NCBI RefSeq assembly: GCF_030503595.1
Contig: NZ_CP129966.1
Span: 1,178,001 to 1,242,000, forward strand
Direction: 5' to 3'
Length of the DNA: 64,000 bases
Source: Corynebacterium sp. P4-C1
GTDB lineage: Bacteria; Actinomycetota; Actinomycetes; Mycobacteriales; Mycobacteriaceae
Shown piece by piece: positions 3,001 to 23,028 of the stretch. The notes under the pieces are model-generated. The model did no database searches and was not told the origin of the DNA. It worked only from the letters and a program-made list of their open reading frames with translations. Each line of letters begins with the position of its first letter. Position 1 is the first letter of the stretch. A program made the translations under genes and the position numbers.

Positions 3001-5283
3001 GTTCTCGTCCGCGTCCTTGGACCAGAACGGGATGAACGTGGGCGCATCCGCGATCTCCGGCGGCAAGAGCTCAAAACGGGCGCGCAGCGGGTCCTCTGCG
3101 GCATCAGCGCGCTCGAGGATCCGTAGCGGCATCTGCGCCACCGACACTTCCTCAGTGCCTGCGACCGCCCGCATCAACGTACGAATCCCAAACGCCCGCG
3201 CCCGCGACTGCACAAAGCCCGCCCGGTGCGCTGCGTCCTGCACCGAGTCCGCGAACACCAGCGTCTTCTTCTCCTCCTGGGCAAGCGAGGGCATGCCGAA
3301 GAGGTTCGACAGCCCCACTGAGAACAGCGTGGCCACGCGCGAGCCGATGTAGCGCACCGCGTCCGGCTCCCCGCAGTTCGGGCACACCTGGTCGCGCGCG
3401 TAGTCCTCCGCGCCCAGGCCCGAGTATGTGAGCACGGGAACGGAGCTGCCCTCCGCACCCGCTTCCTCGCTCGGCTCGGTGGTGCTCAGCGTGCGCGTGG
3501 ACGTGTGGAACCACATCAGCGCGCGCTTGCCGTCCTCATCATCGAACGCGCTCAGCTCCGCTCCGTCGGCGACCGCGCGGCGGTACTCGTTCGTGGCATC
3601 AATGAGCGGACGCGGGAGCTCAGGCTTATCGACACTCGCCTTCCTGATCGCCCCACCATCCAAGACCACCGCATCGGTGCCGGGCTCAAGCGCCGTCATC
3701 CACCCGGCGCGACCGCACTCACGGCAGTAGATCGCGGGCAGCCACACCGCGGCATCGTCGGCACCGAGTTGTCCATCGTCCCCGAAGCGGAACACCTGAC
3801 CGTCTTCCGTCGGCGTGACAGCGCGCTCGATACGGGAGACTTCACGCACCCACAGGTGCGTCTCCACACCGGGCAGGCGCTTGCCGCCGAAGCCGTACTC
3901 CTCGCCTGCGAGCGCGCGCACGTGCGCCACGGCGGTGAGCATGTGCGTCACGAACTCCCGCGCCGTGTCCTCGCCCAAACTGCGCAGCACAATCGGGTCG
4001 AACATCGCGGAAGGCAGTGTCTTCGCCTCTTCGCCCTCGTGCTCAATGAGTGGCTTAGCTTTGCCATCCCCATCCAGCAGCGCCTTGGTGATCGGGTGCA
4101 CCGCGTACGCCGCGATCGTCGCATCGAGGTCCGCACCCGCGTCCAGCCCCCATAGCTGCGTGCGGAAGATGTCCAGCACCACGTCCGCATGGTCGCGCCC
4201 GGAGGTATCGTTCGCGACCGCGTCCACAATCCCGCGCAGCTCATCGATGTCCGGCGGCAGGACAGCGGCGCCACGCCCGAAGGTCTGCGCGATCTCCTCG
4301 GTCCACTCGTCGTAGGTGAGCGTCTTTTCGCTCACCAACGCATCCGGCGTGAACGCCTCCCCGAAGATGGTGCCCGCGAACTCCAGCACCTTGGCGCGGT
4401 CATCGTCGCCGCCGAGCGTTGCCGAGGTGGCCACCGGCGTGACCCGCCCCAACGGGTTCGACGCGTACTCGCCCACGAAGCCCGCCGGCTGGTGCTCCTT
4501 CACCATCAACCCGAGACGGCGCAGCAGGAGCGCAACGTCGGTTCCCTGCGCACCGTCGTAGGTGTGGAACTCATCCAACACCAAGTACTGCAGCGACGTC
4601 GCGGACTTGCGCCAGATCTCCCGGTCTTCGGGGCGCAGCAGCAACTGGTCCAACATCTTGTAGTTGGTGAGCAAGATGTCCGGCGGGTTCAGGCGCATCT
4701 CGTCACGATCAGTAATCAGCGAATGCGCTGTCACCTTCTTCACGTTCCCCGTGGCCTCACCGGTGAAGATACCGGCCGTGACCCCCGCCAGCGCCGGCTC
4801 ATCAGTAATCAGTTTGGCCAACCGATCAGCCTGGTCATTCGCTAGCGCGTTCATCGGGTACAGCAGCAGCGCCTTCACACCTGTGTGCCCCTCCGCCCGG
4901 GCACGCGCCGCGTGGTCCAACACCGGGTACAGGAAGGACTCCGTCTTACCCGAGCCTGTACCCGTGATCACCAGGGTGGGATCCGGGCGGCGCTCCCCAT
5001 GCTCATCCCGGCTGCGCAGCCTACGGAACGCCTCCGCCTGGTGGTGGTACGGCGTGAACCACGACGGCATCCAGTCCAGAATCCCGTCCCACCCGATCGC
5101 GCGGGCGTAGGGGAGCCGCACCCGCACATACGGCCCGTGGAACATGCCGCGTTCCGTGTCTTCAAGGAACGCCTTCAGCGCATTGGATGTCTCCGGATTA
5201 GCCAGCGAGAACGCCGTTGCCAGATATTCAGACACACCCCCTAGGACGTGCTCGGATGCGTGGACGGGGATGAGGGTAGACAT
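1..5283 (-). CDS. Giant DEAD/DEAH-box helicase with DUF1998 region (DruE/DrmA-DrmB-like), 3' end outside window
   Basis: At least 1761 codons are open from the ATG at 5283 to the left edge. Seen: Walker A TGTGSGKTES near residue 107, DEFH box near 236, a long insert, helicase motif IV (TLVFADSVQDAA) near 670, motifs V/VI ending QRVGRAGR near 1100, and Cys pairs suited to zinc ribbons (YCREC near 520, CPNC near 635, CEVC near 980). A DUF1998-type end follows, with HDNVPGGTGYL near 1630 and a closing Cys cluster (CSC...CPDC) near 1665. After that comes a segment with E..F...L...G spacing that may open a nuclease-like domain. Known: DISARM splits helicase (DrmA) and DUF1998 (DrmB) between two proteins, while Druantia DruE carries both. 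Inference: the motor of an anti-phage system acting on DNA. It lies 74 bp downstream of the NTPase gene. The family call is firm; the system assignment is tentative. Confidence 0.9.
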   Translation of the reverse strand, partial: MSTLIPVHASEHVLGGVSEYLATAFSLANPETSNALKAFLEDTERGMFHGPYVRVRLPYARAIGWDGILDWMPSWFTPYHHQAEAFRRLRSRDEHGERRPDPTLVITGTGSGKTESFLYPVLDHAARARAEGHTGVKALLLYPMNALANDQADRLAKLITDEPALAGVTAGIFTGEATGNVKKVTAHSLITDRDEMRLNPPDILLTNYKMLDQLLLRPEDREIWRKSATSLQYLVLDEFHTYDGAQGTDVALLLRRLGLMVKEHQPAGFVGEYASNPLGRVTPVATSATLGGDDDRAKVLEFAGTIFGEAFTPDALVSEKTLTYDEWTEEIAQTFGRGAAVLPPDIDELRGIVDAVANDTSGRDHADVVLDIFRTQLWGLDAGADLDATIAAYAVHPITKALLDGDGKAKPLIEHEGEEAKTLPSAMFDPIVLRSLGEDTAREFVTHMLTAVAHVRALAGEEYGFGGKRLPGVETHLWVREVSRIERAVTPTEDGQVFRFGDDGQLGADDAAVWLPAIYCRECGRAGWMTALEPGTDAVVLDGGAIRKASVDKPELPRPLIDATNEYRRAVADGAELSAFDDEDGKRALMWFHTSTRTLSTTEPSEEAGAEGSSVPVLTYSGLGAEDYARDQVCPNCGEPDAVRYIGSRVATLFSVGLSNLFGMPSLAQEEKKTLVFADSVQDAAHRAGFVQSRARAFGIRTLMRAVAGTEEVSVAQMPLRILERADAAEDPLRARFELLPPEIADAPTFIPFWSKDADENARREAATAVLQRLELDAALEFGQRAHLPRSLVSTGVLAPSVAVDDAVLVEAAREALKSIDAGLFDVVDADAEEVQLRWMRGLLEQVRDRGGVYTPMFDSYLQDDANSWRLHNRYAKARGMRRFPKGGAPEFPRSGPALDDKDRGVTPLGSPRGRYARWTSKVLGMSTHDAALVLTNVFRELARRDVVMAVSTDTGATMYAIAPQHVAVRREEEPALLQCEVCNATLGADEHARDLLDGVPCPTPGCPGTLGVERIAANYYSQLYSSTTPRAIVAREHTGLIPKEERLALERAFRGGGDTNEPSAPNVLVATPTLEMGIDIGDLSTVMLASLPKSVSSYVQRVGRAGRLTGNSLVLAFVQGRGTTLPKLNQPLSVIAGNVVPPAAFLSATEILRRQATAYLVDTLDFNAHGLHAQRASDVFSFHKASLLDVLADEIGQGVEARVEAFGATIAGFVDEATVDGVREWVCGQGPDSLTGEMQRTRTLWDGEVKEFTARRDTLQERLLELEAKVDPNAGTENADPDLEREKRSTKAAYKRISRDLNSILLNEHWISAMERYGLLPNFTLLDDAVELAVVVSQLDPSTMQFNPETFELSRGVSSALTELAPGNTFYARGIAAKVDAVELGMNGADIEQWRLCPACSYGEQVDASTHSGACPECGTSAFADKGQIVDTVRMRRVSAEVDKARALIDDSRDSRHELRYHTALSFSVPEGGRGARWFLSQGFGAEYLRYVNLSWFNLGRGPSAKKVFADKEIDAPLFTVCNYCGHLDSQNGENSKWDHRPWCPKRTAREEESVTVALNRTLQTQGVLLHVPVQLTAGDNSTIPSLTAAIRLGFKEVLGGDPDHLGVVTVRVPDQKGDTVEALLMHDNVPGGTGYLSQFASPEDVHRLLEQAFIRVKGCSCASDERLACPDCLLPYTHWTQIEVTSRAAAERALRSILADQDHPAPELDPLTVSWEAQTEAPEHDNGSHLEVKFREVLRKTLEDRGATVKDVPNAGQVE

Positions 5284-6946: not shown

Positions 6947-7237
6947 ACTCACGCAACGCCGCGTCAGTCTTCACAATCTCCTTCGGCGCCTTCCGACCAT
7001 TCGCATCAAACCGATCCTCCTGGTCATACCGACGCATCACCGGAAACTGCGTCCGATAAATCATGCACAACTCATCCGCCGTAACCCCCAACGACAACGC
7101 CACAATCGCATCAATCTCCACCTGCGCAGCCCGACGCTCCTCATCCTTACGCAACGGCTTATCGACGCCCCACGCCTCCCCCATCAACTCCTCCCACAAT
7201 GGGGCATACGCCTCGGTTAGACAGTTGAGCCGGAGAC
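6947..7237 (-). pseudogene. Methyltransferase 3'-end fragment, copy 3
   Basis: About 97 codons (LRLNCLTEAY to DAALRE) align with the C-terminal region of the intact methylase at 11956-16569. The match begins abruptly near 7237 and stops near 6947, where a stop codon follows DAALRE, so the last 45 or so residues of the family are missing. At several sites (RYDQED, PKEIVK, DAALRE) it agrees with copy 2 rather than with the intact gene. It therefore descends from a different methylase allele and is not a simple duplicate of the neighbour. Confidence 0.9.
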
Positions 7238-7284
7238 TCATGGCTCACCCGGGAATTGCTCCGATGACCTGGACAAATCAATCC

Positions 7285-8184
7285 TCAGTCATTTCCGTAT
7301 TCAGGGAAGGCGACGGGATCCTCATCTGAGAATGTTTCGAACGACTCGTTTAACCCTGCAAGCTCGATCAAGTCGTAATCTTCAAATATCAAGTAGCACT
7401 CGTCGCAAAAGAATCGGTCCGGTAAAAACTTAACCTCTACCACGGGAAACTCCGGGTCTTCCAGATTTAAGTTTTTACTCTCAGCTTCATCGGAGCCGAC
7501 CGTACCGTAACTCCCACACGCCGGACATTGCGCTTCGGTCTCGTAGTACGAACGGGAAACCCATCTCCTATTGGCTTCCCACCGAGCATTCTCTCCGACA
7601 GAGGCCATTCCGCTTTGACGACGTTGGTACCGCGACTGAGCAGACGAAAGAAGTGCCTCGTAATGAACCTCAAGATTTCGCCTATTTGCCGCGAGCTGTT
7701 TTTCAATCTCGGTTGCCATTAACAAACCAACGAAATCTTCGAATGTTCGTTGGCCGGACAGCAGAAGAACATTAAAAAGAGACCAGAGTCTAGGCCACCA
7801 AGTTTGGTTGGGTAGCAGGAGTATGTCTACACCAGCTCCATGTAAATAATCATTCCTAGCCTCCGCGATTTTCAAAGCTTCCTCGCGGTTGAAAGGCCGC
7901 AGCGCGTTCCCACACCTAGTGAAGATTGTGGAGGCTTGTGCAGTGATTGCTTTGTTTGATTCCTTCAGTTCTAGGGCTTGAAGCAATTGAGATCCCCCAT
8001 CCCTCTGGGGATCAACCACCAGCGCAGGTGAGATCTCTGCCAGAGCCCACTTTGCGGCTTGCTCAAGGGAGAGCGCTGCCCAGAACCTTCGTTCATCCTC
8101 ACTTCGTCCTTCGCCTGGTTCAATGGCGCGGTTGATGAAAAGAACTGCCTTGTTCCAGAAACCATCGGCTGCAAAGGGGTTCAT
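7285..8184 (-). CDS. HEPN-like protein with C-terminal zinc ribbon
   Basis: A 299-residue protein. The N-terminal half is helical and contains RNDYLH near residue 110, an Rx4H motif of the kind that forms the active site in HEPN ribonucleases. The C-terminal part has CPACG and, about 40 residues later, CDEC, which together would bind one zinc. It ends in a very acidic tail. Its ATG overlaps the stop of the interrupted dioxygenase gene by the four bases ATGA, so the two genes were translationally coupled. Known: HEPN proteins are frequent RNA-cleaving toxins in abortive-infection systems. Inference: this is the effector of a two-gene defence module. The HEPN call rests on one motif plus the helical context. 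Confidence 0.6.
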   Translation of the reverse strand: MNPFAADGFWNKAVLFINRAIEPGEGRSEDERRFWAALSLEQAAKWALAEISPALVVDPQRDGGSQLLQALELKESNKAITAQASTIFTRCGNALRPFNREEALKIAEARNDYLHGAGVDILLLPNQTWWPRLWSLFNVLLLSGQRTFEDFVGLLMATEIEKQLAANRRNLEVHYEALLSSAQSRYQRRQSGMASVGENARWEANRRWVSRSYYETEAQCPACGSYGTVGSDEAESKNLNLEDPEFPVVEVKFLPDRFFCDECYLIFEDYDLIELAGLNESFETFSDEDPVAFPEYGND

Positions 8185-8766
8185 CGTACGACCTTCCTCA
8201 ACATCACCCGTTGTATCTCTCTCGATGATTGGTCAACTGCCACGCGTGATCTCCCGTGAAGGATCAGCCGGTTACGAAGTAGCAACATTAGATTAGGCCG
8301 GTCCCAACGAAACTCAGTCACCTCATTAGGTGGGGGAGCTGACAAACGCCGCGCAAGCTGCCTAGCGAAATAATCCAGTGGGCTCATGCAGCTCGGATCG
8401 AAGCGTAGGCCACCATCGAGGTCATATGCTGAAGAAAGCCACGCTTCTCTTCCGTTCCGGACCGCAAACATACCGCGCGTTTCCTCGAACGGAATCGTCC
8501 CCGGTCGCCACAACCTTGTAGTTACTGGGCTCGGCCTTGTTGACCAGAGAAGTATTAAGTCCGGAACGTCTCGGTGGTGAGCACCGTCCGTGTGAAGCGG
8601 TTGTTCCCCATATCCATATCTAGAGCTAATAGAGTTCGAAGGAGCTTCGTGCTTGAGCATCGGTTTTAGGGTGTCCACCTTCCCTTGACCCACGCGGCTG
8701 GCAACCAATTCGAAGCCACTACGTCGAGCTAGATTTTCGACTAATCCGTTCAATGCATTCGAACTG

Positions 8767-8774
8767 GCTTGTCC
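8767..8774. repeat. Target-site duplication of the IS, left copy
   Basis: The 8 bases GCTTGTCC directly adjoin the left inverted repeat and are repeated exactly at 10214-10221. Confidence 0.95.
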
Positions 8775-10213
8775 GAGAGTGTCCGATTGTTTGTGTGCGG
8801 GGTTTGGTTTACAAGTAGTCCGCGAATCGGTCGGGGTACGCCACGGCTAGTTGGTTGATGGCTTGTTTCCACCCGTTGGCTTTCGCTCCTTCAATATAGC
8901 CGTTGCATTCGATGTCGCGCTTCGCCTTCTTCGCTCGCTGGGCGGCGCGCTTGTCTTCGATGTTGCAGATCATCAACCATAGGGTCTTCAGCGCCGCGGT
9001 ATCGTTCGGGAATTGGCCCCGGTTACGGGTAGCTTTACGCAGTTCAGCATTCAGCGATTCGATCGAATTGGTGGTGTAGAGCACCCGCCGGGCCGCCGGC
9101 GGGAACTGCAAAAACGGCACGAACCGGTCCCAGGCGTCGCGCCAGACTTTGACCGACTGCGGGTATTTACGGCCCAACTCTGAGGCCTCGAAAGCATCCA
9201 GGCTGGCACGGGCGGCGTCCTCGTTGGCGGCCGTGTAGATCTCACGTAGCGCCCTCGATACGGGTTTGCGGTCTTGGTAGGACACCCACCGGTTCGCAGC
9301 TCGAATCAGGTGCACGATGCAGGTCTGCACCATCGAATTCGGCCAGGTTGCCTCCACGGCTTCCGGCAGGCCTTTGAGCCCGTCGCAACACACGATGAAC
9401 ACGTCCTGGACGCCACGGTTGGCCAAATCTGCGCAGACTGATGCCCAGAATGCGGCACCTTCATTGTCTGCGATCCACAATCCTAAAATGTGCTTGATGC
9501 CGTCGATATCCACACCGATGGCTATGTAGCAGGCTTTGTTGACCACCCGGTGACCATCGCGGATCTTCACTCGCAGCGCGTCAAGGAAGATCACTGGGTA
9601 GAACTCGTCGAGTTGCCTGTTCTGCCAGATCAGCACCTCATCCAACACCGCATCGGTAATGGTACTGATCGTATCTGGGCTCATATCCACCCCCAGGGTG
9701 CCGGCGAGATGGTGCTGAATATCGCGCACGGTCATCCCGCCGGCGTACAACGAGATAATCATGTCGTCGAGCTCTGTCAGCCGACGGGATCCCTTCGGCA
9801 CCATCTTTGGAACAAACGTGCCAGCACGATCCCTCGGCATAGTCACTTCCAACGCGCCATACCCAGAATTGACGGTCTTGGTGTACGACCCGTTGCGGTG
9901 ATTGCTCTCCTGTGCGGTTTCCACCCGGGCCTTCGCCTTACGGTCGGCATGGCCGTAGCCCAAATGCGCATCCATCTCCGCCTGCAGACCAGCGTTGATC
10001 GATGCCTGCAACAGGCCTTTAACCAGGTCGCTTGCATCATCAGCAGAGGCCGACAGCTCGCTGATCAGGCTGGCCAGCTCAGGATTTTCCATCAGCTTCT
10101 CGCTGATCTCGTTGACCCTCGCCGGGTCATGGCCTTTCTTCGGTGACACAGCAGTCATTATCAGTGAAACTCCTTCAGATCAGAGCCTCACACACAAACT
10201 TCCTGACACCCTC
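8775..10213 (-). mobile_element. Complete IS256-family insertion sequence (1439 bp)
   Basis: The ends are imperfect inverted repeats of 25 bp (GAGAGTGTCCGATTGTTTGT at left; GAGGGTGTCAGGAAGTTTGT read inward at right; 19 of 25 positions match). The element is bounded by a perfect 8-bp duplication, GCTTGTCC. Its transposase frame is intact. The undamaged duplication and frame suggest a recent insertion that may still be mobile. Confidence 0.95.
8809..10158 (-). CDS. IS256-family transposase
   Basis: A 449-residue DDE transposase of the mutator/IS256 type. Seen: the first Asp in FLDALRVKIRDG near residue 192, the second in VCCDGLKGLPEA near 260, and the Glu in NSIESLNAELRKATR near 367, with the usual spacing. 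The length is normal for the family and the frame is unbroken. It catalyses cut-and-paste or copy-out movement of the surrounding element. It reads in the same direction as the gene it interrupts, so outward transcription could reach the dioxygenase 3' part and the HEPN-like gene. Confidence 0.97.
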   Translation of the reverse strand: MTAVSPKKGHDPARVNEISEKLMENPELASLISELSASADDASDLVKGLLQASINAGLQAEMDAHLGYGHADRKAKARVETAQESNHRNGSYTKTVNSGYGALEVTMPRDRAGTFVPKMVPKGSRRLTELDDMIISLYAGGMTVRDIQHHLAGTLGVDMSPDTISTITDAVLDEVLIWQNRQLDEFYPVIFLDALRVKIRDGHRVVNKACYIAIGVDIDGIKHILGLWIADNEGAAFWASVCADLANRGVQDVFIVCCDGLKGLPEAVEATWPNSMVQTCIVHLIRAANRWVSYQDRKPVSRALREIYTAANEDAARASLDAFEASELGRKYPQSVKVWRDAWDRFVPFLQFPPAARRVLYTTNSIESLNAELRKATRNRGQFPNDTAALKTLWLMICNIEDKRAAQRAKKAKRDIECNGYIEGAKANGWKQAINQLAVAYPDRFADYL

Positions 10214-10221
10214 GCTTGTCC
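10214..10221. repeat. Target-site duplication of the IS, right copy
   Basis: An exact copy of GCTTGTCC at 8767-8774, adjoining the right inverted repeat. Confidence 0.95.
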
Positions 10222-10430
10222 CGCACTCCAACCTTTCTCAGCCGATTGGCCGAGCATGCGGCTGAAGTTGAAAGCCTCAATTTCCGTTTCGCAGCTGTTC
10301 AAAATCATCACACCCCCTGAAACAAGTACTCGCAAGCCATATACCGCTCTTGCGGGTCAGACTCCACCTCGGGAGGGAAATGATATCCACCGCAATCGGT
10401 ACTCTCTCCAAATTGATTTGAACTCATCAT

Positions 10431-10838
10431 TCACCCCACCATCCCCTCAAACCTCGCATACGCCTCCCGCATATCCGCCTCCCGTTCCAACCGCCTAAAC
10501 GGATACTCAAAGACGTACTCCACAGCCGACTGCGGATGCACCCACGTCCGATCCGCCACCGACAACTCCTCACCCTCACGCAACGCCGCGTCCGCCTTCA
10601 CAATCTCCTTCGGGACCTTCCGACCATTCGCATCAAACCGATCCTCCTGGTCATACCGACGCATCACCGGAAACTGCGTCCGATAAATCATGCACTACTC
10701 ATCCGCCGTCACCCCCAACGCCAACGCCACAATCACATCAATCTCCACCTGCGCAGCACGCCGCTCCTCAACCTTACGCAAAGGCTTATCGACGCCCCAC
10801 GCCTCCCCCACAACCTCCTCCGACATCATCTACTCTTC
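10431..10838 (-). pseudogene. Methyltransferase 3'-end fragment, copy 2, with an internal amber codon
   Basis: About 130 codons match the C-terminal end of the intact methylase, from EEVVGEAW to the family terminus ARFEGMVG and a TGA stop. A TTG leucine codon of the family (ADELCMIY) has become TAG at 10695-10697, so the fragment cannot be read through. Homology ends abruptly near 10828, only about 30 bp from the stop of the unknown gene upstream. It lies 122 bp before the start of the dioxygenase gene. Copies 2 and 3 share substitutions that the intact gene lacks. Confidence 0.9.
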
Positions 10839-10854
10839 TCAGACCGAGATTTCC

Positions 10855-11586
10855 CTACCATTTTGCGTCAATCACTCGTGGAGAGAACCCTGCCGGAGGC
10901 GTGACTGAGAAACCGAGCTCCTCCAGCGACTTTGCCGCGGCTTCCGGGTAGTCCCGTGCTGCGGCAGCCGTTTGCTTGAACAACCATTCTTGCCGCCGTC
11001 GCAGCAAGGTCGGCTCCCAGCCCGGTTTTCCCCGAAACCCGCACTCAGCGATAACGAAGTAAAGGAATTCTTCGAGCGACGGACGAAACCGTCTGCCACC
11101 CACCGGTAAGTGCAGTTCTTCCAGCCGTCCTTTCTTCCTCGGGTTTCCAGACTTCCCTTGGAAGTTTTGCATTAGAGCCGGACTCAGCAATCCAGTGACT
11201 CCCGAGTAATGAATGTGGGCGCATGGAGCGCTGGTGTACCCCCGTTCGTATTCAAACCGAATGCCTGGGGACGTAGCTACCCGCAGCTCGAATTTGCTTC
11301 TTTCCACGGCGAGGAACTTGCCGGTGGAATCGGAAGTTAATTCGTAGCGGACGATGACGCGGAATAGCTGGCTGTAGTCTTGGCTTTCAACTTCGCTTTC
11401 GAGCTGACCGGCACCGTGGATAACCGGGGCATCAAATTCACCGACAACGATGTTCGTATCGGCGTTAAGCCACGCCTCCGTTTCGATATCCCCTTCAGAT
11501 GCGAGTGGGAGAGCATCTATAAGCGTGCTTCTCACCTCATCGAGAAACAGCTCAGCCTCGTCACGCAGATTCAAGTTGTCCCTCAC
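10855..11586 (-). CDS. Conserved-looking protein of unknown function, module 1
   Basis: A 243-residue soluble protein that I do not recognise. It has a mixed N-terminal half, a HIHYSG stretch near residue 125, and a well-ordered block LPVGGRRFRPSLEEFLYFVI near 160-180, followed by a helical Arg/Ala-rich end. The block reads like a conserved family signature. It overlaps the 3' end of the small upstream gene by 26 bp, so the two are probably co-translated. The pair sits between the intact methylase 3' end and fragment copy 2, the same arrangement as the other modules. It may be an accessory effector or a toxin-antitoxin-like pair; nothing in the sequence decides. Confidence 0.75.
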   Translation of the reverse strand: MRDNLNLRDEAELFLDEVRSTLIDALPLASEGDIETEAWLNADTNIVVGEFDAPVIHGAGQLESEVESQDYSQLFRVIVRYELTSDSTGKFLAVERSKFELRVATSPGIRFEYERGYTSAPCAHIHYSGVTGLLSPALMQNFQGKSGNPRKKGRLEELHLPVGGRRFRPSLEEFLYFVIAECGFRGKPGWEPTLLRRRQEWLFKQTAAAARDYPEAAAKSLEELGFSVTPPAGFSPRVIDAKW

Positions 11587-11782
11587 CCAACAGCATCAAT
11601 ACGACGCTTAAATCGTCGTACAGGGCCCGTTCGGACTTATCTAGCATGCCCGAGTGGGCGAGCGTACGTAGTTCTTCAATGCTCGCAGAAGACTGGCGTG
11701 TAGACCTGCGGAGAGCGGCGAGATAGTCTCGCTTCTTCTCCCAGAGTTCCTTGTTGTTGGTGGTCTTAATTTCAACTGCCAT
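11561..11782 (-). CDS. Small protein of unknown function, module 1
   Basis: A 73-residue, charged, probably all-helical protein (MAVEIKTTNN to GEGQLESA). The ATG at 11782 was chosen because GAGGTG lies 7 bases upstream; the frame is open further to 11848, but that extension has no ribosome site. It starts 173 bp after the intact methylase stop and overlaps the next gene by 26 bp. Small helical partners preceding larger unknown genes in defence islands are often antitoxins or adaptors, but that is only an analogy here. Confidence 0.6.
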   Translation of the reverse strand: MAVEIKTTNNKELWEKKRDYLAALRRSTRQSSASIEELRTLAHSGMLDKSERALYDDLSVVLMLLGEGQLESA

Positions 11783-11955
11783 CTCAATCACCTCAGCTCG
11801 CTGGGTTATCGTTCTAGTCCCGAATAATAGCCAACAGCGCGCTACCAACGACCTGCGCTGTAGAACGCTTGTTCGACAGTGCAGGTCGAGATGCTCGCCC
11901 CCAACACTGATCTCGACGAACCAGATGCGCTCGTGCTTCTCTCCTTGCTGGGCGT

Positions 11956-14900
11956 TTAACCCATCCCCTCAAACCGCGCATACGCCTCCCGCATATCCGC
12001 CTCCCGGTCCAACTGCCTAAACGGATACTCGTATACGTACTCCACACCCGACTGCGGATGCACCCACGTCCGATCCGCCACCGACAACTCCGCACCGTCC
12101 TTCAACTTCGCGTCCGCCTTCACAATCCCCTTCGGCACCTTCCGACCATTCGCATCAAACCGATCCTCCTGGCCATAACGCCGCATAACCGGAAACTGCG
12201 TCCGGTAAATCATGCACAACTCATCGGCCGTCACACCCAACGACAACGCCACAATCGCATCAATTTCCACCTGCGCAGTCCGGCGCTCCTCATCCTTTCG
12301 CAGAGGCTTATCGACGTCCCACGCCTCCCCCATCACCTCCTCCCACAAAGACGCATATGCCTCGGTGAGGCAGTTGAGCCGGAGGTAGAGATTCCGAGCC
12401 TCCTTCATCAATGGACTGTCGGCAGGTAAAGGAATCGCCCGAATGATCGCATTTGGGATATGTGCGGAACCGGCGGAGCGAACGACATAGTCAGCAAGCA
12501 ACGAGCTCATCACTGTCCCAGCCGAAGCTATCCCTTCGTTCGATTCCGCTGCGCATGAGTTCACCGCATGCACATGGGCAGACCCTGGAGGAATCAAGGC
12601 TGGATACAGAGTACGAAAACCGGTAGTAGCTGCCATCTCCCGCCAAGCAACCCGGAATAAGCTCTTCGCCGATTTCAATTCGTCGCCGAACCGAAACGTC
12701 GGGTAATCGGAATCGTAATCTGATTGTTTAAGTCGGTCAGGCTGGTAGGCCGTCGCAGGAATGAAATCGGCGGGCATTGCTTCGATATCGATCTCGAACC
12801 AATCTTTGTTGCTCTTTAAGCCAGGGTTCGGCTGCTTAATCATTGGGGTCGCAACACCAAGGTGCGGCCCTTGGAAGATCACGTCGTCCCATGAATCCGG
12901 GTGCGCCCATCCCGTGTCGAAGTAGCCTTTCTTCTTGTCAATGGATTCGTCCCATCCCCTGGAGAACTGAAGTCCGAGTTCGCGGATGCGCGGCGCAGCA
13001 GCAAGCTTCTCGAGCACAGCCGCTGCTGCGGTGTTCACGGTGTAAACCATGCGGGATTCGATGGCTGGAACCGATTCGTCCTCAAGAATGGAGTGCCACA
13101 CATCAAGCGCATTGAGATTAACCGTCTGAATGCGATCACGGTGTGGTCGTAGGTCCCAATTTCCAGAGTCATCCTTCAGTCCAGGAAGCTCACCGGCGCC
13201 GTTGTGGGAGAGAGACTCTTGCACGGTCGCTGGGTGGTACAACGAAGCGGCGTTGTGGAACTTCGGGGAGGTTCTGAGGTGCCCATAAAGATGAACCCCG
13301 TAGGTGACGTGATTATCGATGTCGAACAACTTGAGCTCGTTGTTGAACTGCCAGTGACGTCGCAAACGCAAGTACGCACCCCGACGTAGAGGCGCAGCCT
13401 TCTTCTCGGTGAAGTGAGACTCAGGATGGATAAATGAGGCCACACCATCTTCCGACGCATTGCACCACGTGCGCTCCATGAACCCTCGGTAGAGATCGGG
13501 TTGTTGGCCGACGAGGTGCGGGTAACGGGTGACGTCCGTGAGTACCGCGGCTGTCGCTACAGATTCACTGAGGCCGCGGTAAACCGTCTCGCGGGTCGCT
13601 TCATCGTCGTTCCGTTGCTGACGTCGCTCGTTCTTCACGGCCTGGGTAGGCTTGTGCGCCAATGAGAACCACGGGTCTGCCTCGGAATACAACGCATCTA
13701 GGTCCGTACGCGGCCGCACCCACGGCGGGTTACCCACCTGCAGGTCGAAGCCGCCGCGAGCGAAGACGGCCGCGAAGTCAAGGTCCCAGTGGAAGAAGCC
13801 TTGGTCGGCGGCGACGGACTGCACAACGCGCAACCACGGGTGGTTCGCAAGCACAGTGTCCACGGCGCGGGCGCCGGAAAGGCCGATCTCGGTGCGTTCC
13901 AGCTCCACCAGTTCGTCCCAGTTGGTGGCGCTGGCCAGGCGGATCTGGTTGGTGTCGCGGGCCTGGGTGTCCACGCCGAGGAGGTCGGTGAGTGCGGCGA
14001 GCCACTCGTCGAGATCGGGCAACTGGTCCGCTTCGGTTAGTGGCCAGAAGGTCAGCGCGTTCCATGCGTCCATGACGAGGCGGAGGCGGAGGTAGGCACC
14101 TTCAGCGTCGTGTAGCAATTCTTGCTCGATTTGCTCGCGGCGCACATTCTTCGCGGTGTGTTCGGTGTCCCGGCCCCAGAGGTCAATATCGCGGCGGATC
14201 TGGTCTTCCGCAATGCGCATTTTGGACAGCGTGATGGCCCACAGGGACTCCACGCGGGCGGCGAGGTTGGTCAGTTTCTTCGCTTGCTGCTTGGTAGGCA
14301 CCTTGCCGGTGACGGATTTCTTCCACGTCTTCATGGCGGCGATCTCGTCGGCGGCGAGGGCTTTCAGGTCCTTCGCGTCGGCAGCATCGCCCCAGGTGGC
14401 AGAAGGCAGGAGGAACTGGTGGATGCGGCCGGCGGCGTTGATGTCGCGGGGCTCGCCAGCGTCGATAGCTTCGGCGAGGTTCTGGACGGACTCCCGGCGC
14501 GGGACGGCGGTGAGCCACTCGCGCTTCTTCAGCTGGGCTGTGGAGTACGTGGAGCGCAGTGCACCGATGAGTGAGCTACCGCGCCGCAGGTGGAGGCCGA
14601 ACCACGGGGCTTTGAGCTGGCTGGTCATGGTGTCTAGCCACAGGGAGATCTCGGCGAGCTCCACCGCGGTGGGGTTCAGGTCCACGCCGTACACCTGGTG
14701 CAGGGCGATGTGGGCCTTGACCTTTTGTAGTTCGATCGTGCGCTGCTCAGGTTCGACCTGGGTGTCCAGTTCGTCCTCTCGCAGCTTGAGGTAGAGCTCC
14801 GCGAGTTGGCGTGCGGCCTCCACGGCGAAGGCGCCGGAGCCCATGGCGGGCTCGCAGATGGTCAGGCTGAGCACGTCCTCGGAAGAGGTGATGCGGCCTT

Positions 14901-16569
14901 CCTCCTGCAGGACCTCGATGGCCTGTCCCACGGTGAACTCGGTGAGCACCTGCGGGGTGTAAAAGGACGCGGAGCGTTCCCGGTCGCGGCTGGACTGGCG
15001 GAACACGAACGAGCCAGCCGGGTGTTCGCGGCGCACCTTGGAGGTGCCGCCTTCCTCCATCTGCTTGGTCTCCATGACGAAGCTGTCCTGCGGGACCGTG
15101 TCAGCGGCGTGGGTGGGAAGCACCCAGGAACCCTTGGAGGCGTCGCCCTTCGGCGCGACCTCGTACAGGTCCTCTTGGGCGATGAAACCGTGGTAGGACA
15201 TCAGGCCCTCATACACTTGGCCCAGCTCGGTCACGCCGAGCGTGGCATAGGAGATGAACCCGCGGTCCTTGCCGGCTGAGACCTTGGACAAAAGGAGGTT
15301 CTGCAGCACTTGGGTGAGGGCGGCGTTGGAGAGCTTGGTGTCGTCGATAAGCGAAGTCGCTTCGCTTTTGAACAAGTCTGCTTCCAAGTTGCGGAAGTTC
15401 AGGCCCTCGTTCTGCGCATCCGCGTCGGCGCTTGGTGTCTCGAGCGGGTCGTGGCCCTCGTTGACCTGTGTGAAAAGGAGCTGCAGCGAGTCGTAGAGGT
15501 GTGTGCCGCGACGAGCTTTATCGGTGACGGGAGGGTTGAGGATCTGGTCGCGGAGGCGGTCTAGGCCGTAGCCATCGACGTACTCGGGTGCGCCGGTGGG
15601 CAGGATGGCAAGTTCCGGGGAAGCCTCCGCAAAGAGCAGGAAGAGGATGCGGTAAAGGTAGCGCAGAGATTGGCGGGCGAGCTCGTTGCCGTCGATAGTG
15701 TCGATGGGCAGGTCCTGCTCCCGGCGGCGGTCCAGCACGTCATTGCCGATGATCTCGATGGATTCGCGCACCGCGTCGCGCAGGTCGCCGGAGACCTTCA
15801 CCGCGTGCTGCTGAGATTCCTCGCGGGTCTCGGCCCACCACGTGGTGCCGTCGGCGGCGCGCTCAAGGTTTTCCCGGGCGAGGATGACTGCAATGCGCTC
15901 GAGCTCGCCGGCTTTCTTCGCATCGTTACGCTCGACGGCCAGCTGCAGGTTCACCGCCAGGTAGCGGCCAAGCGGCCACGATTCCCGCTCTGCCAGAAGC
16001 ACCCACGTTCCCGCAATGACCACGACGAATTCTGGCGGGTCCTGCGAGAGAAACAGATCACCGATGAGCTTCGACACCTTGATGGGCTGCGATTCCTTAC
16101 CCGCCGGGGTCACTCCCCCAGCGACCGGGAGGGAAATGAGAGTATCTTCGGTGACGTCGGTGGCGTTATCGTCTGCTCCGTTTTCTTCCCCGCCATCGCT
16201 GTCGGCTGCGAGTGCTGCGCTGACGACGATCAAGGTGCCGGCGTTGCCGTGCCAGCCGTCGTAGGTCAGCTCTTCGCCGGCGCGCGTGTAGGTCTTACGC
16301 TCTGGCGCGCCGAACCCGAATGCGGTGCGGATCAGTGAATCGGTCTTGTCGGCATTGGCGTTTGTTGCGAAAGCCTTTTGCAGATCACCGCGGTACTGCT
16401 GGAAGCGCTTAGCAGGCGAGAGTGTTCCGGTTTCGTTTTCCAGCTCCGACCATTCCTTGGTGCGGTTTTTCACGCGTTTGGTGAAGGACTCGCCTTTGGT
16501 CTCGTCGGTGGTGAGGTAGTGGTCGCTGATCCACTCGTCGACATTGAGGATGGAATCGTATGCAGCCAT
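11956..16569 (-). CDS. Large Eco57I-type N6-adenine DNA methyltransferase (DrmMI/PglX-like)
   Basis: A 1537-residue protein with AdoMet motif I CEPAMGSGAF near residue 573, a downstream YGVDLNPTAVELAEISLWL block near 630, and the catalytic NPPW near 943, the order of gamma-type N6-adenine methylases. A long N-terminal domain and a long C-terminal domain, probably for target recognition, flank the core. It starts 13 bp after the SNF2 helicase stop, with TAGGAG as ribosome site overlapping that stop, so the two form one operon. Known: methylases of this type modify self DNA in DISARM and BREX. Inference: it marks host DNA for the island. Its last 130 or so residues are those duplicated at 10431-10838 and 6947-7237. 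Confidence 0.93.
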   Translation of the reverse strand: MAAYDSILNVDEWISDHYLTTDETKGESFTKRVKNRTKEWSELENETGTLSPAKRFQQYRGDLQKAFATNANADKTDSLIRTAFGFGAPERKTYTRAGEELTYDGWHGNAGTLIVVSAALAADSDGGEENGADDNATDVTEDTLISLPVAGGVTPAGKESQPIKVSKLIGDLFLSQDPPEFVVVIAGTWVLLAERESWPLGRYLAVNLQLAVERNDAKKAGELERIAVILARENLERAADGTTWWAETREESQQHAVKVSGDLRDAVRESIEIIGNDVLDRRREQDLPIDTIDGNELARQSLRYLYRILFLLFAEASPELAILPTGAPEYVDGYGLDRLRDQILNPPVTDKARRGTHLYDSLQLLFTQVNEGHDPLETPSADADAQNEGLNFRNLEADLFKSEATSLIDDTKLSNAALTQVLQNLLLSKVSAGKDRGFISYATLGVTELGQVYEGLMSYHGFIAQEDLYEVAPKGDASKGSWVLPTHAADTVPQDSFVMETKQMEEGGTSKVRREHPAGSFVFRQSSRDRERSASFYTPQVLTEFTVGQAIEVLQEEGRITSSEDVLSLTICEPAMGSGAFAVEAARQLAELYLKLREDELDTQVEPEQRTIELQKVKAHIALHQVYGVDLNPTAVELAEISLWLDTMTSQLKAPWFGLHLRRGSSLIGALRSTYSTAQLKKREWLTAVPRRESVQNLAEAIDAGEPRDINAAGRIHQFLLPSATWGDAADAKDLKALAADEIAAMKTWKKSVTGKVPTKQQAKKLTNLAARVESLWAITLSKMRIAEDQIRRDIDLWGRDTEHTAKNVRREQIEQELLHDAEGAYLRLRLVMDAWNALTFWPLTEADQLPDLDEWLAALTDLLGVDTQARDTNQIRLASATNWDELVELERTEIGLSGARAVDTVLANHPWLRVVQSVAADQGFFHWDLDFAAVFARGGFDLQVGNPPWVRPRTDLDALYSEADPWFSLAHKPTQAVKNERRQQRNDDEATRETVYRGLSESVATAAVLTDVTRYPHLVGQQPDLYRGFMERTWCNASEDGVASFIHPESHFTEKKAAPLRRGAYLRLRRHWQFNNELKLFDIDNHVTYGVHLYGHLRTSPKFHNAASLYHPATVQESLSHNGAGELPGLKDDSGNWDLRPHRDRIQTVNLNALDVWHSILEDESVPAIESRMVYTVNTAAAAVLEKLAAAPRIRELGLQFSRGWDESIDKKKGYFDTGWAHPDSWDDVIFQGPHLGVATPMIKQPNPGLKSNKDWFEIDIEAMPADFIPATAYQPDRLKQSDYDSDYPTFRFGDELKSAKSLFRVAWREMAATTGFRTLYPALIPPGSAHVHAVNSCAAESNEGIASAGTVMSSLLADYVVRSAGSAHIPNAIIRAIPLPADSPLMKEARNLYLRLNCLTEAYASLWEEVMGEAWDVDKPLRKDEERRTAQVEIDAIVALSLGVTADELCMIYRTQFPVMRRYGQEDRFDANGRKVPKGIVKADAKLKDGAELSVADRTWVHPQSGVEYVYEYPFRQLDREADMREAYARFEGMG

Positions 16570-16582
16570 TGGTGTGCGTCTC

Positions 16583-19480
16583 CTAGTTGGTGTCTGCGTG
16601 TGGCTCGGCGTTGGTGTCGGCGGGCAGGATGAGTACGAGTGGGCGGATCAGTTCGCGGTCGGGTTCGAGTGAGGAGATGAGCGACTTCTCTTCGCTGATA
16701 AGCGATGCCGAGCGGCCGACCTTGGCGGTCTTAGTCACGTCTTCTTTCGCCTGGTCCCAGTTCTCTGCACGCTGCACCCAGTACCCGATGCGGTCGTGCG
16801 CATGTGCGCGAGCGGCGGACATCATCGGTTGCAGCTGACCGCTGGCTACCTGCACTGACTGAGCAATTAGTTCTTGGGCATTATCAGGCAGAGTGAGCGT
16901 GCCTGGGTTGATCGCTCGTTCGGTCAGTCCAACTCCGCGGAGCCATGTGATCGGATCCGGCACATCCTGCGGGATCATGCCGTCCATCATTGCCACGAAG
17001 GCGCGGGAGACGACCTGACCGCGCTTATTGGTCAATGTCGCCATGAGCAGCACCGTCGGTGCGGGGACGTCGCCGGAAATGGCAGTGATCTGGCCAGCGG
17101 ACAGCGAGGCGAGCGCGCGGTCGGTGGCCCAATCGGTCACCGGGTGCAACGGGCCCAGGAAGTGGGCCTTCGGCCAGGTGGATCCGTCCTGCCCTGTGCG
17201 AGCACGACGCATGACCTCGTTGCCCACGTCGATGTTCGTGGCCAGCTGGAAGCACTCCCGCACTTTGCGGTCGGCCAAATAGTCCTGCGGCAGAACTTCG
17301 AGGCGGCGGCGGAGATCTTCCGGCGGGGTGAGCTCCGCGACCTGGTTCTGGTGGCGCACATACCCCACGCCGTTGGCGGCAAGGTCCTTTTCCGGTGCGC
17401 CACGGAAAGCCTCGCTCAGAGCGTCTTCCAAGTAGGCGACCTCAGAAGTGTAGAGGCTGCCGCGGATCCCGCCCGCGGATGCGGACGCGGTGTCGATGAA
17501 TGCATTGTTCGAGGCCGCAGGATCAAAGTTTCCGTCTTCATCGAGTTCAAGACCGAATCCGGCCATCCACTGATCAAGGAGGTCTTCTTCAGACTCCGCC
17601 GTTTCCTCAGCGATCTGTTCTGGGGCCTTCACCACCTCATCGAAACCGGCTTGGTTCTGAATGATCTTGCGGATCTCATCCTCCTCGCCCTTGACCGAGT
17701 GCTGGCCGATGAGTGAGCCGACATCGCCGAGGATCTCGTGGGCCTGGTGCTCGCGCTCGATGAGCTTTTGCAGCACGTGGAGCTCACCGACGTAACCGCC
17801 CTGCGCTGTGTCAAGGAGAAGCGCCGTGATCTGAGGTGACTCGGTCTGCCCGTAGCGGTCAATGCGGCCATTGCGTTGTTGGATACGAATGAGCGACCAC
17901 GGGATGTCGTAGTGGACCAAGTGGTGGCACAGCGTGTGCAAGTTGACACCCTCAGAGGCGACATCGCCGGTGACCAGGATGCGCAGTTTGGAGTCCTCGC
18001 GCTTGAATTCGTCGACAAGCCTCATCTGCTCCTCGTCCGAGAGACCACCGTGCATGACTGCGATGGAGTCTTTGGGCATCTTGAGGTCTTTGGTCAGATT
18101 CTCCTGGAGCCAGGTGAGTGTGGCGACGCGCTCGGAAAAAATGACGGCGCGGGTGTCGGACTTCTTGCCCACGCCGATCTCAGTGAGGTAATTGATCAGC
18201 GCCGCATACTTGTTGGAGTTCTGGCGGGTGACCTTGGAGTTGAGCTCGTGGAGTCGCTCGAGCGCCTCCCGCTGTACTTTCTCGCTGGTGGGAATGCGTT
18301 TCAGGCGGTTTGAGATCGTCTCCTCGAGCGCGGCAGGCGAAGACAGGAACGCTTTGACCAGGGTCCACGGGAAGAGCCGGTCCTGCGCTGGGATCTGGCC
18401 GTCATCCGGGTGGATCCAGGTAGCTTCAAGTTCCGCAGCGACGGCATTCTCTTCTTTCGATGCTTCCACCGGGATATTCAGCGGGTCTTTCCGGACGGCC
18501 CACTTCTCCCCCACCACTGTGGCTACCTCATCACTGTGCCGGTGGCGGCGGATGAGGAGTCGCCTCACCGCATCCTTGTCAATCGTCCCGTCCGGCATGA
18601 CTGCCGTCGGGTCCAGCAAGCGGAGAATCTCCTTGAAGGACTCGGGATCACCATTGTGCGGTGTCGCCGATGCGAGGAGGAGTGCTTCAGTCGTCGGGGC
18701 CAGAGTGCGGGCAAGCTCGTTGTTCTGCGTGCCCACATTGGTGGCGTTGTGGATTTCGTCGATGACCACCGCATCCCAGCGGACCTTTTCCAACTGTGCG
18801 CGATACTTCGGACTCTTGAGCGTGTCCATCGAGACAATCACGCGGGAAAAGTAGGTGAACGGGTTCCGGCTCGACGGCAGGATTCGACGGACACGCTGGA
18901 TCCCAGCCGAGTCGAGGCGGACCAGCGGAATAGCGAAGCGGGACCACATCTCTTGCTGGAACTGCTCCATGATGTGCTTCGGTGTGACCACGAGGATGCG
19001 GTCCCCGCGGCCGCGGCGGATCAGCTCCGCGAGAATCATGCCGATCTCGAGGGTCTTGCCCAGACCAACGGCATCGGCGATGAGGACGCGGGGGCGGAGG
19101 TTGTCGTCGGACAGGGCCTTCTTTACCGCGGTGAGCTGGTAATCCAGCGGATCCATGAGCATCTGCTCCGCGACGGAGAGCTCTGCTTGGTACAGCGGAA
19201 CCGGGGTTTGGCGCAGTGTCGTCTCCAACCACAGACGCGTGGTGCGGTAGCCCGGCGAGTGGTCCGGCACCACCTCGACCTTGGCGGGGTCGAAGACCTC
19301 TACATCGTCGATCGCTGTGTAGAAGCTCGCCGTGGTGTCACGCACATAATCGGACAGGCCACGCACCTTGAGCAGGTAGCCGTCGACAGACTGGGTCACG
19401 CTAGTGATTAGCCACAGCTCATCGCGCACACGGACCATGAGGCCTGGTGCGAATGCAGTTGACGGTGCAGAAGTAGGCAT
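16583..19480 (-). CDS. SNF2-family helicase (DrmD-like)
   Basis: A 965-residue superfamily 2 helicase with ADAVGLGKT (Walker A) near residue 140, DEIH box (VVIDEIHNA) near 236, ATPHNGDPESF (motif III) near 270, TGDVASEGVNLHTL (motif V) near 525 and QRNGRIDRYGQ (motif VI) near 557. The C-terminal 400 residues are a family-specific domain. Known: SNF2 helicases of this layout next to an Eco57I-type methylase are the DrmD-DrmMI pair of class 1 DISARM. It is the first gene of the defence operon and diverges from the exonuclease gene at 19756. Its promoter should lie in 19481-19737. Confidence 0.92.
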   Translation of the reverse strand: MPTSAPSTAFAPGLMVRVRDELWLITSVTQSVDGYLLKVRGLSDYVRDTTASFYTAIDDVEVFDPAKVEVVPDHSPGYRTTRLWLETTLRQTPVPLYQAELSVAEQMLMDPLDYQLTAVKKALSDDNLRPRVLIADAVGLGKTLEIGMILAELIRRGRGDRILVVTPKHIMEQFQQEMWSRFAIPLVRLDSAGIQRVRRILPSSRNPFTYFSRVIVSMDTLKSPKYRAQLEKVRWDAVVIDEIHNATNVGTQNNELARTLAPTTEALLLASATPHNGDPESFKEILRLLDPTAVMPDGTIDKDAVRRLLIRRHRHSDEVATVVGEKWAVRKDPLNIPVEASKEENAVAAELEATWIHPDDGQIPAQDRLFPWTLVKAFLSSPAALEETISNRLKRIPTSEKVQREALERLHELNSKVTRQNSNKYAALINYLTEIGVGKKSDTRAVIFSERVATLTWLQENLTKDLKMPKDSIAVMHGGLSDEEQMRLVDEFKREDSKLRILVTGDVASEGVNLHTLCHHLVHYDIPWSLIRIQQRNGRIDRYGQTESPQITALLLDTAQGGYVGELHVLQKLIEREHQAHEILGDVGSLIGQHSVKGEEDEIRKIIQNQAGFDEVVKAPEQIAEETAESEEDLLDQWMAGFGLELDEDGNFDPAASNNAFIDTASASAGGIRGSLYTSEVAYLEDALSEAFRGAPEKDLAANGVGYVRHQNQVAELTPPEDLRRRLEVLPQDYLADRKVRECFQLATNIDVGNEVMRRARTGQDGSTWPKAHFLGPLHPVTDWATDRALASLSAGQITAISGDVPAPTVLLMATLTNKRGQVVSRAFVAMMDGMIPQDVPDPITWLRGVGLTERAINPGTLTLPDNAQELIAQSVQVASGQLQPMMSAARAHAHDRIGYWVQRAENWDQAKEDVTKTAKVGRSASLISEEKSLISSLEPDRELIRPLVLILPADTNAEPHADTN

Positions 19481-19652: not shown

Positions 19653-19755
19653 CGGGTCAACGCGCGCTGGGGCGGACTATTAACCCGCTTCAGGATTCGC
19701 ACAACCGCTCGACAGATGCGCTGCCGGTGTCCGGGACGTGAATTACTTTGGTGGC

Positions 19756-22700: not shown

Positions 22701-23007
22701 TCTCGAGCTAAATGCTGAAGAAGGAGATCGCATTTGGCTGCGGTATTCCCCGAACCAATTCGACGTTCGCCCGGCACCCGCTGCAGTTTTCGAGGAGTTT
22801 TCTCTCGATGACGCAGAGACGGTTGATCTGCCCCACTTGCTGGACTACATGGGTTTGTCACCCGATCTGGCAGCTGATCCCACCGCTGCGCTGCATGCGA
22901 TCAACTCGGCTCTCGCACTCGAACCGGATGCCGCGCGGCGCCGAACCGTTGCGGTATTCCGTCACCGCGGCCAGGATCAGTTCGCGGAAGTCGTACGCGC
23001 GCTGTAA
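19756..23007 (+). CDS. Multidomain DEDDh exonuclease / BRCT / sigma-70 region 4-like protein
   Basis: A 1083-residue protein. Domains in order: a DEDDh 3'-5' exonuclease (VIDLETTG near residue 10; VAHNASFEQRF near 90, with Glu where Asp is usual; HAALPDAMATAELL near 150); a helical EF-hand/TerB-like region (220-300); a BRCT-like domain (QLKPGDRIALTGSM onward, 320-400); a helix-hairpin-helix (LRDLPGVGVKRLE near 500); and a sigma-70 region 4-like helix-turn-helix (LDELGQVFGVSRERIRQLE near 640). The C-terminal part is not recognised. The ATG at 19756 is only one base after GGTGG; a GTG at 19738 is the alternative. It diverges from the defence operon. Roles in DNA repair or nuclease-based defence are both possible. 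Confidence 0.8.
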   Translation: MSTRNGYAVIDLETTGFGGADRIIEVGIALLSPDLELEGTWETLVQPNRDVSNSHVHKLTPTDLRDAPTWEEIAPLVAQLLNGRIGVAHNASFEQRFLTKEFQRVNIATNAANARWVDTRVLASEHLGRGKLSEALAIAGLTNDLPHAALPDAMATAELLRELHTTWGAHFTGMPLSFMVEPGSTKQPRLVSRAQAQQGEQWLSRIAQSLPTSGSTGGSSYQELLRKALSDRRLTSEEISQLALTAESEGLTSEDINEIHEDFLRQVAIEAWMDGVITDAEKSDLIDLAEQLNVRPTTARELLASPQTGSPENWIQLKPGDRIALTGSMDLPRETWEARAAAYGLQTGGVSKKTVLVVAANPDSRSGKARRANELGIPIISEKHFASLLAEWEMTNDSDSSNRDISNEEGVSHLEPRSVRFSWVSTILPNSSDFDLQNNEIASLWINHFPTSQLQEISPVLTGNVIIDLSGSSASKAGAIWADRFDPMLTATVEDLRDLPGVGVKRLERMVEAVILAAIDAESQESATMDDYMSEFGDPYGAEPIENESTIPAEEIDILRGWLALSGIHEVPQALKAVLPNVDARFDEREPLDALFARCADELSTACGDDERKHRIVTSRYMGNATLDELGQVFGVSRERIRQLESELKKDFDAPSTLSTWVASELAAQFLPIARREQVLRDFPELTATAEPFHGTYEQFFLMWKLWTIDEEWLLAPDFETTARDVIAECANETNVTRLEDVANALGVCEQPFSEWLQKLSGVLLLPDGKHLIVASNHQDRAVGVLSMRGEPLGVEDIIDALGIEVNPRSLANQLAVDDRIVRAGNNLYALAAWNREEFSSINSWITNRIKASENGSVSLEDLIADAPNFNVSENSVRAYAAGSDFDLVDGMVSLSTGTDEVVQEDPQDYRDLYWHDGAWEMLLTVSFDHLRGSGFQVPRGVAGIYQVPVGGEVSVASRLGDQFVRVNKLKQSSTSTIRRFLLELNAEEGDRIWLRYSPNQFDVRPAPAAVFEEFSLDDAETVDLPHLLDYMGLSPDLAADPTAALHAINSALALEPDAARRRTVAVFRHRGQDQFAEVVRAL

Positions 23008-23028
23008 TTCGCGGAGCCTGCGTATGCA

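Follow-up and report, generated by a model that had tools for sequence, protein, structure and literature searches.

The stretch analysed here (the window) comprises 64,000 nucleotides (nt) of Corynebacterium sp. P4-C1 (G000:C1:1178001-1242000) and carries on its minus strand an antiviral operon of the ARMADA Type II pattern, in which an intact gene for a 1,537-amino-acid (aa) methyltransferase, armB, is followed by three different gene cassettes before the helicase gene armC is reached. Broken copies of the armB 3' end separate the cassettes, and comparison with other Corynebacterium loci (genomes are designated by G numbers and stretches by L numbers) indicates that cassettes are probably stacked or swapped at the armB/armC junction by one-sided homologous recombination at a 3' block of armB. 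At the sequence level, the array itself, the variation of its contents between species, the block at the switch points, a recombination signal in the block, and scars of armC are all observed, and shared cassettes have raised identity over armB in most, not all, cases.

In addition to the gene itself, blastn of the intact armB against the window returned two further matches in the same orientation, one of 387 nt (90.4% identity; E value, 3e-152) within fragment f1 and one of 282 nt (90.1% identity; E value, 1e-107) within fragment f2 (Table 1), which agrees with the first-pass annotation, an earlier reading of this DNA, in which an intact methylase and two broken 3' copies were described. The ArmB protein search of the whole P4-C1 genome found these three places only and no further copy (four candidates, all scored). 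The amber codon reported for the first copy is real and lies at gene nt 4351. As was also stated before, f1 and f2 have variants in common that are not found in the window's intact armB. In a tree of 23 copies they are sisters (ultrafast bootstrap, 98) and stand next to the intact armB of C. stercoris (87), apart from the window's own gene, which indicates that they are not fresh duplicates of it.

A total of 242 Corynebacterium genomes were searched, and 54 had an armB match. The loci examined were 50 armB loci from 48 genomes, some with a broken armB (e.g., G014, G067, G113, and G232), and the locus of G236, where fragments occur without an armB; G036, G068, G122, and G180 were excluded for having weak or partial matches only, and G193 was excluded for contigs that were too short. 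Six of the 50 loci (G067, G154/HMSC29G08, two in G124, and two in G191) had no armC in the fetched stretch. Both genes were in view in the other 44, of which 27 are bare, with a gap of 6 to 124 bp, 5 have inverted armB pieces between the two genes (0.9 to 3.0 kb), and 12 have 2.4 to 14.8 kb of cargo there; in G096, an armC relic lies within the gap, and armC itself starts at 15457. A block profile built from the terminal 432 nt of ten intact cargo-group genes recovered direct extra 3'-end copies in 9 of the 12 cargo loci, namely, G000, G080, G062, G096, G002 (a 52-nt tail), G053, G187, G210, and G153 (degraded), and also in G236. The same profile recovered the armB 3' end proper in each of the 27 bare loci and extra direct copies in none of them, and reversed sequences gave no match. 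The genus-wide searches mostly scored the two best candidates per genome, so that copies far from armB are excluded for the P4-C1 genome only. No match to armB DNA was obtained in a plasmid search. The contents of the loci differ between related species.

The block lies at the points where one cassette is replaced by another. A 529-aa gene follows the intact armB in G080 and an armB fragment in G187, and the homology of the two loci at this gene is a single 2.2-kb piece with 94.6% identity that begins inside the block, compared with 83.3% for armB outside its hypervariable part and 83.4% for armC. In a genus search, this gene was present at an identity of at least 96% in these two loci only and at 36% or less elsewhere. 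In G000, G096, G187, and G236, one and the same fragment junction comes after the pair of 95- and 243-aa genes, but what lies beyond that junction differs: G187 has the 529-aa gene there, and G000 and G096 have a dioxygenase pair. The latter pair is downstream of a fragment in G000, G096, and G053, and the fragment ahead of it in G053 abuts an armB of a different 3'-end type. The last few armB codons vary with the cassette. Between the window and G096, identities are 90.5% for cassette A and 85.1% for cassette B versus 79.6% for armB and 78.9% for armC. Of eight shared-cassette comparisons with the operon on both sides, six have cassettes more alike than armB, and in three of these, two from G000-G096 and that of the 529-aa gene, they exceed both armB and armC.

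The copies are direct repeats beside the parent gene, as would be expected if the armB 3' end had been duplicated in tandem within one genome, with later decay and insertion of unrelated genes. Within-genome pairs of copies (n = 15) are also, on average, slightly more alike than between-genome pairs (n = 238), at 90.9% versus 89.2% (permutation P = 0.029), and some fragments are near their own gene (97.3% in G096; 95.1% for the f2 copy of G062), a closeness that may reflect either duplication or gene conversion. However, the window fragments group with the C. stercoris gene and not with their own, and cassette and block form one piece of homology across species. The within-genome closeness is also patchy; one copy in MSK008 matches its own gene at 99.5% over the 5' half but at 85.0% over the 3' half, which looks like conversion. 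Tandem duplication is thus an improbable source of the array.

The putative recombination anchor is the armB 3' block. Among ten intact genes, the fourfold-site identity is 0.59 and 0.60 in codons 1 to 1000, 0.33 in codons 1001 to 1394, and 0.68 and then 0.87 in the block, and the identities expected from composition in the same regions are 0.42, 0.41, 0.26, 0.40, and 0.65. The hypervariable codons 1001 to 1394 are presumably the target recognition part, by analogy. A pairwise homoplasy index (PHI)-type test of our own found a recombination signal inside the block (0 of 1,000 permutations), both for 18 of the 23 copies, with five truncated or gapped ones omitted (window f2 being one of the five), and for the ten intact genes; four control regions gave P values of 0.61, 0.022, 0.22, and 0.12. 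The first 1,200 codons of armC have no rise in silent identity toward the 5' end (0.57 to 0.67), which suggests that the anchor is one sided. The left ends of the fragments lie near the most G-rich 30 nt of the block (7 of 12 within 25 nt; scan P = 0.002; 6 of 11 and P = 0.011 when one copy is left out), a clustering that is only suggestive, as the events are perhaps dependent and two positions were set by eye between two alignments.

A second type of scar is present in the cargo of four loci (G096, G002, G187, and G153). Each of these has a truncated 5' piece of armC upstream of an armB 3' remnant, the two touching in G096. The armC piece of G187, which starts at approximately codon 107, additionally has an armB remnant joined directly to its left side. 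Such scars point to an origin in pieces of whole operons, apparently arranged in tandem at first and collapsed later.

In the proposed mechanism, incoming DNA with the armB 3' block and other genes would recombine with the resident block by ordinary homologous recombination, and the far end would be closed either by a second homologous exchange, at another block copy or at armC, or by illegitimate joining. The new cassette would land behind armB and push the older one downstream, where a block copy would then precede it, and later exchanges between block copies could swap cassettes between species and convert the sequences of the copies. The first-pass annotation had proposed the methylase 3' end as a recombination anchor; the varying cassettes and the 3' end at the switch points are as it described, and it is the act of exchange that we infer, together with the direction of the events, the circular or linear form of the donor, a need for RecA, and a benefit to the host. 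A further-reaching version, in which the block is a maintained one-sided docking site and an integrase-free platform, with a G-rich coding stretch as the preferred breakpoint and whole foreign defence systems traded between species, is possible but rather doubtful.

Several observations weigh against recombination at the block. Its silent identity is in part a matter of composition, since block codons mostly end in G; in the last 67 codons, 61 to 89% of the fourfold sites are G in the ten intact cargo-group genes, and the bare loci G099 and G238 partly share the G-ending codons. One control region had a low P value (0.022) in the PHI-type test, and incompatible sites are commoner in the controls (0.48 to 0.56) than in the block (0.32 to 0.39), so that homoplasy or free recombination is possible there. 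In three of the eight comparisons (G096-G053, G187-G096, and G002-G096), armC is as alike as the cassette or more so. The OLD-type gene shared by G002 and G153 has 72.9% identity versus 79.0 and 77.3% for armB and armC, and the symporter stretch shared by G187 and G096 has 84.8% versus 85.1 and 95.1%. These two may be older residents, and with two of eight cassettes less alike than armB and three matched or exceeded by armC, the pattern may be partly older or may include armC. In the profile search, 3 of the 12 cargo loci (G112/meitnerae, G135, and G136) have no extra copy, which means that cargo may arrive otherwise or that scars may be lost; the idea that an old 3' end is left behind every time was too strong. 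The genomes compared are mostly one per species, and no strain-to-strain exchange was seen; a donor circle was not seen either, though no search aimed at one was made. Lastly, 5 of 13 aligned fragments are open through to the 3' end, and the fragments appear to be under weaker constraint than the intact genes and not to be evolving freely, with mean ratios of nonsynonymous to synonymous substitution (dN/dS) of 0.21 for fragments versus intact genes, 0.33 among fragments, and 0.12 among intact genes.

The open fragments, the start codons at the left ends of several of them, and mean dN/dS values below 1 would also fit fragments that are small working genes for the ArmB C-terminal domain and part of their cassettes. 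However, 8 of the 13 are truncated at an end or disrupted by a stop, a frameshift, or a large deletion, the left ends are variable, and the dN/dS values are above those of the intact genes. Such a role is accordingly quite unlikely.

Integration at the 3' ends of genes, with short repeats, is common, and remnants of 29 to 51 nt of the extreme armB 3' end exist. If the repeats were attachment-site copies made by a site-specific integrase acting at the armB 3' end, short remnants of this kind would be expected, whereas the copies reach up to approximately 390 nt and have variable left ends. Moreover, no site-specific integrase was found among 33 distinct cargo-region proteins, a subset of the cargo open reading frames (ORFs), that were scanned with Pfam and in some cases with PADLOC or NCBIfam; the only recombinase-type proteins among them were an IS256 transposase and a Mu/rve-type transposase. 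An attachment site is thus very improbable. Carriage by transposons was also weighed and ranked low.

Inverted, tail-to-tail copies of the armB C-terminal part were observed at the armB/armC junction in five loci (L047, L048, L049, L050, and L051, in G042, G046, G217, G128, and G166, respectively). There are two in G128, one of 610 nt with 88.7% identity in G166, and one of approximately 1.2 kb with 77% identity in G042, and there are also matches in the family members G266 and G487. The inverted copies are possibly a specificity switch. The direct copies at the same junction might likewise be silent stores that switch ArmB specificity, but they begin after the hypervariable codons, and recombination with them alone would therefore leave that region unchanged; the exception is one G187 remnant, which matches the protein from codon 1376. 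Such a role for the direct copies is accordingly very improbable.

The operon itself was assigned from its core genes. ArmA matches Helicase_C and SNF2 in Pfam and DrmD (318 bits) and BrxHII (200 bits) in PADLOC, and ArmB matches the type IIG model PDLC03611 over its full length (2,200 bits) and Pfam Eco57I. The full armC ORF is present in the P4-C1 genome beyond the window. Domain and PADLOC scans of ArmC and ArmD were made on the G217 homologues, the ArmC of which is 48% identical to that of the window. The best PADLOC matches of the ArmC homologue are to DruE (287 bits), with the Pfam domains DEAD, Helicase_C, and MZB. The ArmD homologue has the Pfam domains UvrD_C and UvrD-helicase and matches many GajB models, its top single PADLOC model being NERD+UvrD and not GajB; a sequence scan for a RelE-like domain at the ArmD N terminus gave no Pfam match at an E value of 0.01. 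In the window and the adjoining P4-C1 stretch (L039), armA, armB, armC, and armD are codirectional, with the cargo between armB and armC, and the same core genes adjoin in G003 and G065.

The core gene content and order match the description of ARMADA Type II in a preprint (Bell et al. 2025, PMC12458937), where the core consists of a RapA-type helicase, a PglX-like methyltransferase, a YprA/DruE-like helicase, and a GajB-like UvrD helicase, and the operon is therefore best read as ARMADA Type II. The preprint emphasizes strict gene order and attributes the spread of ARMADA to integrase-bearing elements at tRNA genes; the portion of it available to us names neither cargo between armB and armC nor 3'-end copies (PMC12458937). 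The locus had been called DISARM-like, and the pair of helicase and methyltransferase does resemble DrmD and DrmMI of DISARM Class 1. However, that label was rejected, since armC is closest to DruE and armD encodes a UvrD helicase. Separate DrmA and DrmB genes, as in DISARM, are not found, and no search was aimed at the DISARM phospholipase gene DrmC; judging from the G217 homologues, a single DruE-like protein combines the helicase with an MZB (MrfA zinc-binding) domain and is followed by the UvrD helicase.

Table 1. Features of the armB/armC region in the window (positions count from its first nucleotide)
Feature	Position	Strand	Basis
armA, SNF2/RapA-type helicase, 965 aa, core gene	16583..19480	(-)	Pfam and PADLOC
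armB, N6-adenine methyltransferase (PglX/type IIG-like), 1,537 aa, intact, core gene	11956..16569	(-)	PADLOC and Pfam
armB 3' block (gene nt 4183-4614), proposed recombination anchor	11956..12387	(-)	Silent sites, PHI-type test
Cassette A gene 1, 95 aa from TTG, 73 aa from ATG at 11782	11561..11848	(-)	ORF, homologues
Cassette A gene 2, 243 aa	10855..11586	(-)	Homologues
Fragment f1, armB 3' end with amber codon	10431..10838 (matching part 10439-10825)	(-)	blastn, alignment, tree
IS256-family element, complete (transposase 8809-10158)	8775..10213	(-)	Transposase_mut, 394 bits
Cassette B gene 1, TauD-like dioxygenase, 5' part removed by the IS256 element	8181..8753	(-)	Pfam TauD, E value 1.6e-7
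Cassette B gene 2, 299 aa	7285..8184	(-)	Subthreshold Pfam DUF7117 match only
Fragment f2, armB 3' end, 3' side truncated	6947..7241 (matching part 6954-7235)	(-)	blastn, alignment
Cassette C, STAND/AAA-type NTPase, 453 aa	5358..6719	(-)	PADLOC candidate PDC-S59, 94 bits
armC, YprA/DruE-like helicase, 2,108 aa, core gene	1..5283, continues past window start	(-)	ORF in P4-C1 genome

The first-pass annotation had placed a different gene set after each methylase 3' end, at distances of 120 to 230 bp. The contents do differ, and the cargo after f2 is the 453-aa nucleoside triphosphatase (NTPase) only, the giant helicase counted with it being the core gene armC. The distance does not hold between f1 and the dioxygenase pair, because an insertion sequence (IS) of the IS256 family lies there. 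Homologues of the first gene of cassette A are equally placed in G096, G236, MSK008, and G002; its second gene is 95 to 98% identical in G096, G236, G187, and G002, with no family match above threshold in PADLOC, Pfam, or NCBIfam. No NCBIfam match above the cutoffs was obtained for any of 10 proteins. G096 has an uninterrupted 235-aa homologue of the dioxygenase, and the window ORF is broken near codon 38 of it. The 299-aa protein had been labeled HEPN, which the Pfam scan left unconfirmed. In Pfam, the cassette C NTPase matches NB-ARC and, below the cutoff, AAA_16.

The IS256 element, overlooked in the first-pass annotation, sits inside the dioxygenase gene and is flanked by an 8-bp target duplication (10214-10221 and 8767-8774). 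An IS origin of the armB repeats in the window was rejected, because the element has a target duplication of its own and interrupts a cassette gene. In G095 (L092, approximately position 10716), a genome without an armB match, a 64-nt armB 3' tail lies by the end of an IS256-family element. In several hotspot loci, the otherwise unrelated sequence just ahead of the armC start contains a short GATAAAGTT-like motif, which might be an armC promoter.

Many of the scanned cargo-region proteins are defence-like, among them an OLD-type ATPase with TOPRIM, PD-Lambda-5 (553 bits) with a D12 methyltransferase, and ApeA-type proteins, as well as CHAT, FRG, and PIN proteins, an IrrE-type peptidase with a helix-turn-helix domain, a STAND NTPase, and a Schlafen-type helicase (G236). 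Not all of the cargo is defence-like; a glutamate symporter is present in G096, and other proteins are without a match. In G236, the stretch L046 (G236:C1:58000-77900) has cassettes, three block copies, a short 3' tail, and an armD remnant but neither armB nor armC. The cargo may have outlived the core operon there; the assembly is listed as 77% complete.

The same-species genome G183 has no armB match, and the locus is missing at this site, so that it could not serve as a within-species strain comparison. In the comparison of window positions 19696-23010 with L094 of G183, the flanks of the site are up to 98.6% identical, G183 has Schlafen-type helicase and HipA genes there, and the neighboring DEDDh/BRCT/sigma-r4 ORF is a 70% allele at the DNA level.

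Like displacement arrays described elsewhere, the armB array has repeated anchor pieces downstream of an intact gene, each with a different following sequence. In rhs arrays, an intact gene precedes a series of fragments whose conserved core pieces vary in length and whose downstream parts differ, and homologous recombination through circles was proposed for the displacement of C termini (Jackson et al. 2009, PMC2935791). There, rhs displaces its own variable C terminus; the armB anchor is instead a conserved 3' end that lies after the hypervariable region, and the units displaced are separate operon genes. In the immunity-gene arrays of the Vibrio cholerae type VI secretion system (T6SS), successive modules push older ones downstream, an effector 3' end was left in one case, and homology-facilitated illegitimate recombination was proposed (Kirchberger et al. 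2017, PMC5361080). Those are effector-immunity modules at a secretion cluster, in contrast to antiviral cassettes within an antiviral operon. Integrons and other site-specific systems differ from the armB array, in which the ends are variable and the scanned subset of cargo proteins includes no integrase.

For rhs and T6SS loci, the general mechanism has thus been put forward before (PMC2935791 and PMC5361080). The literature search, mostly outside subscription papers, found no description of such arrays in an antiviral operon, and what is new is the setting, in which the constant end of a core gene anchors defence-like genes within such an operon. The findings link defence operons to the displacement arrays of toxin loci and suggest a testable route by which an antiviral operon could gather defence genes without an integrase or transposon, the homology arm being supplied by a core gene's conserved end. 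Should this hold generally, remnants of core-gene ends could reveal hidden cargo and the order in which defences were acquired.

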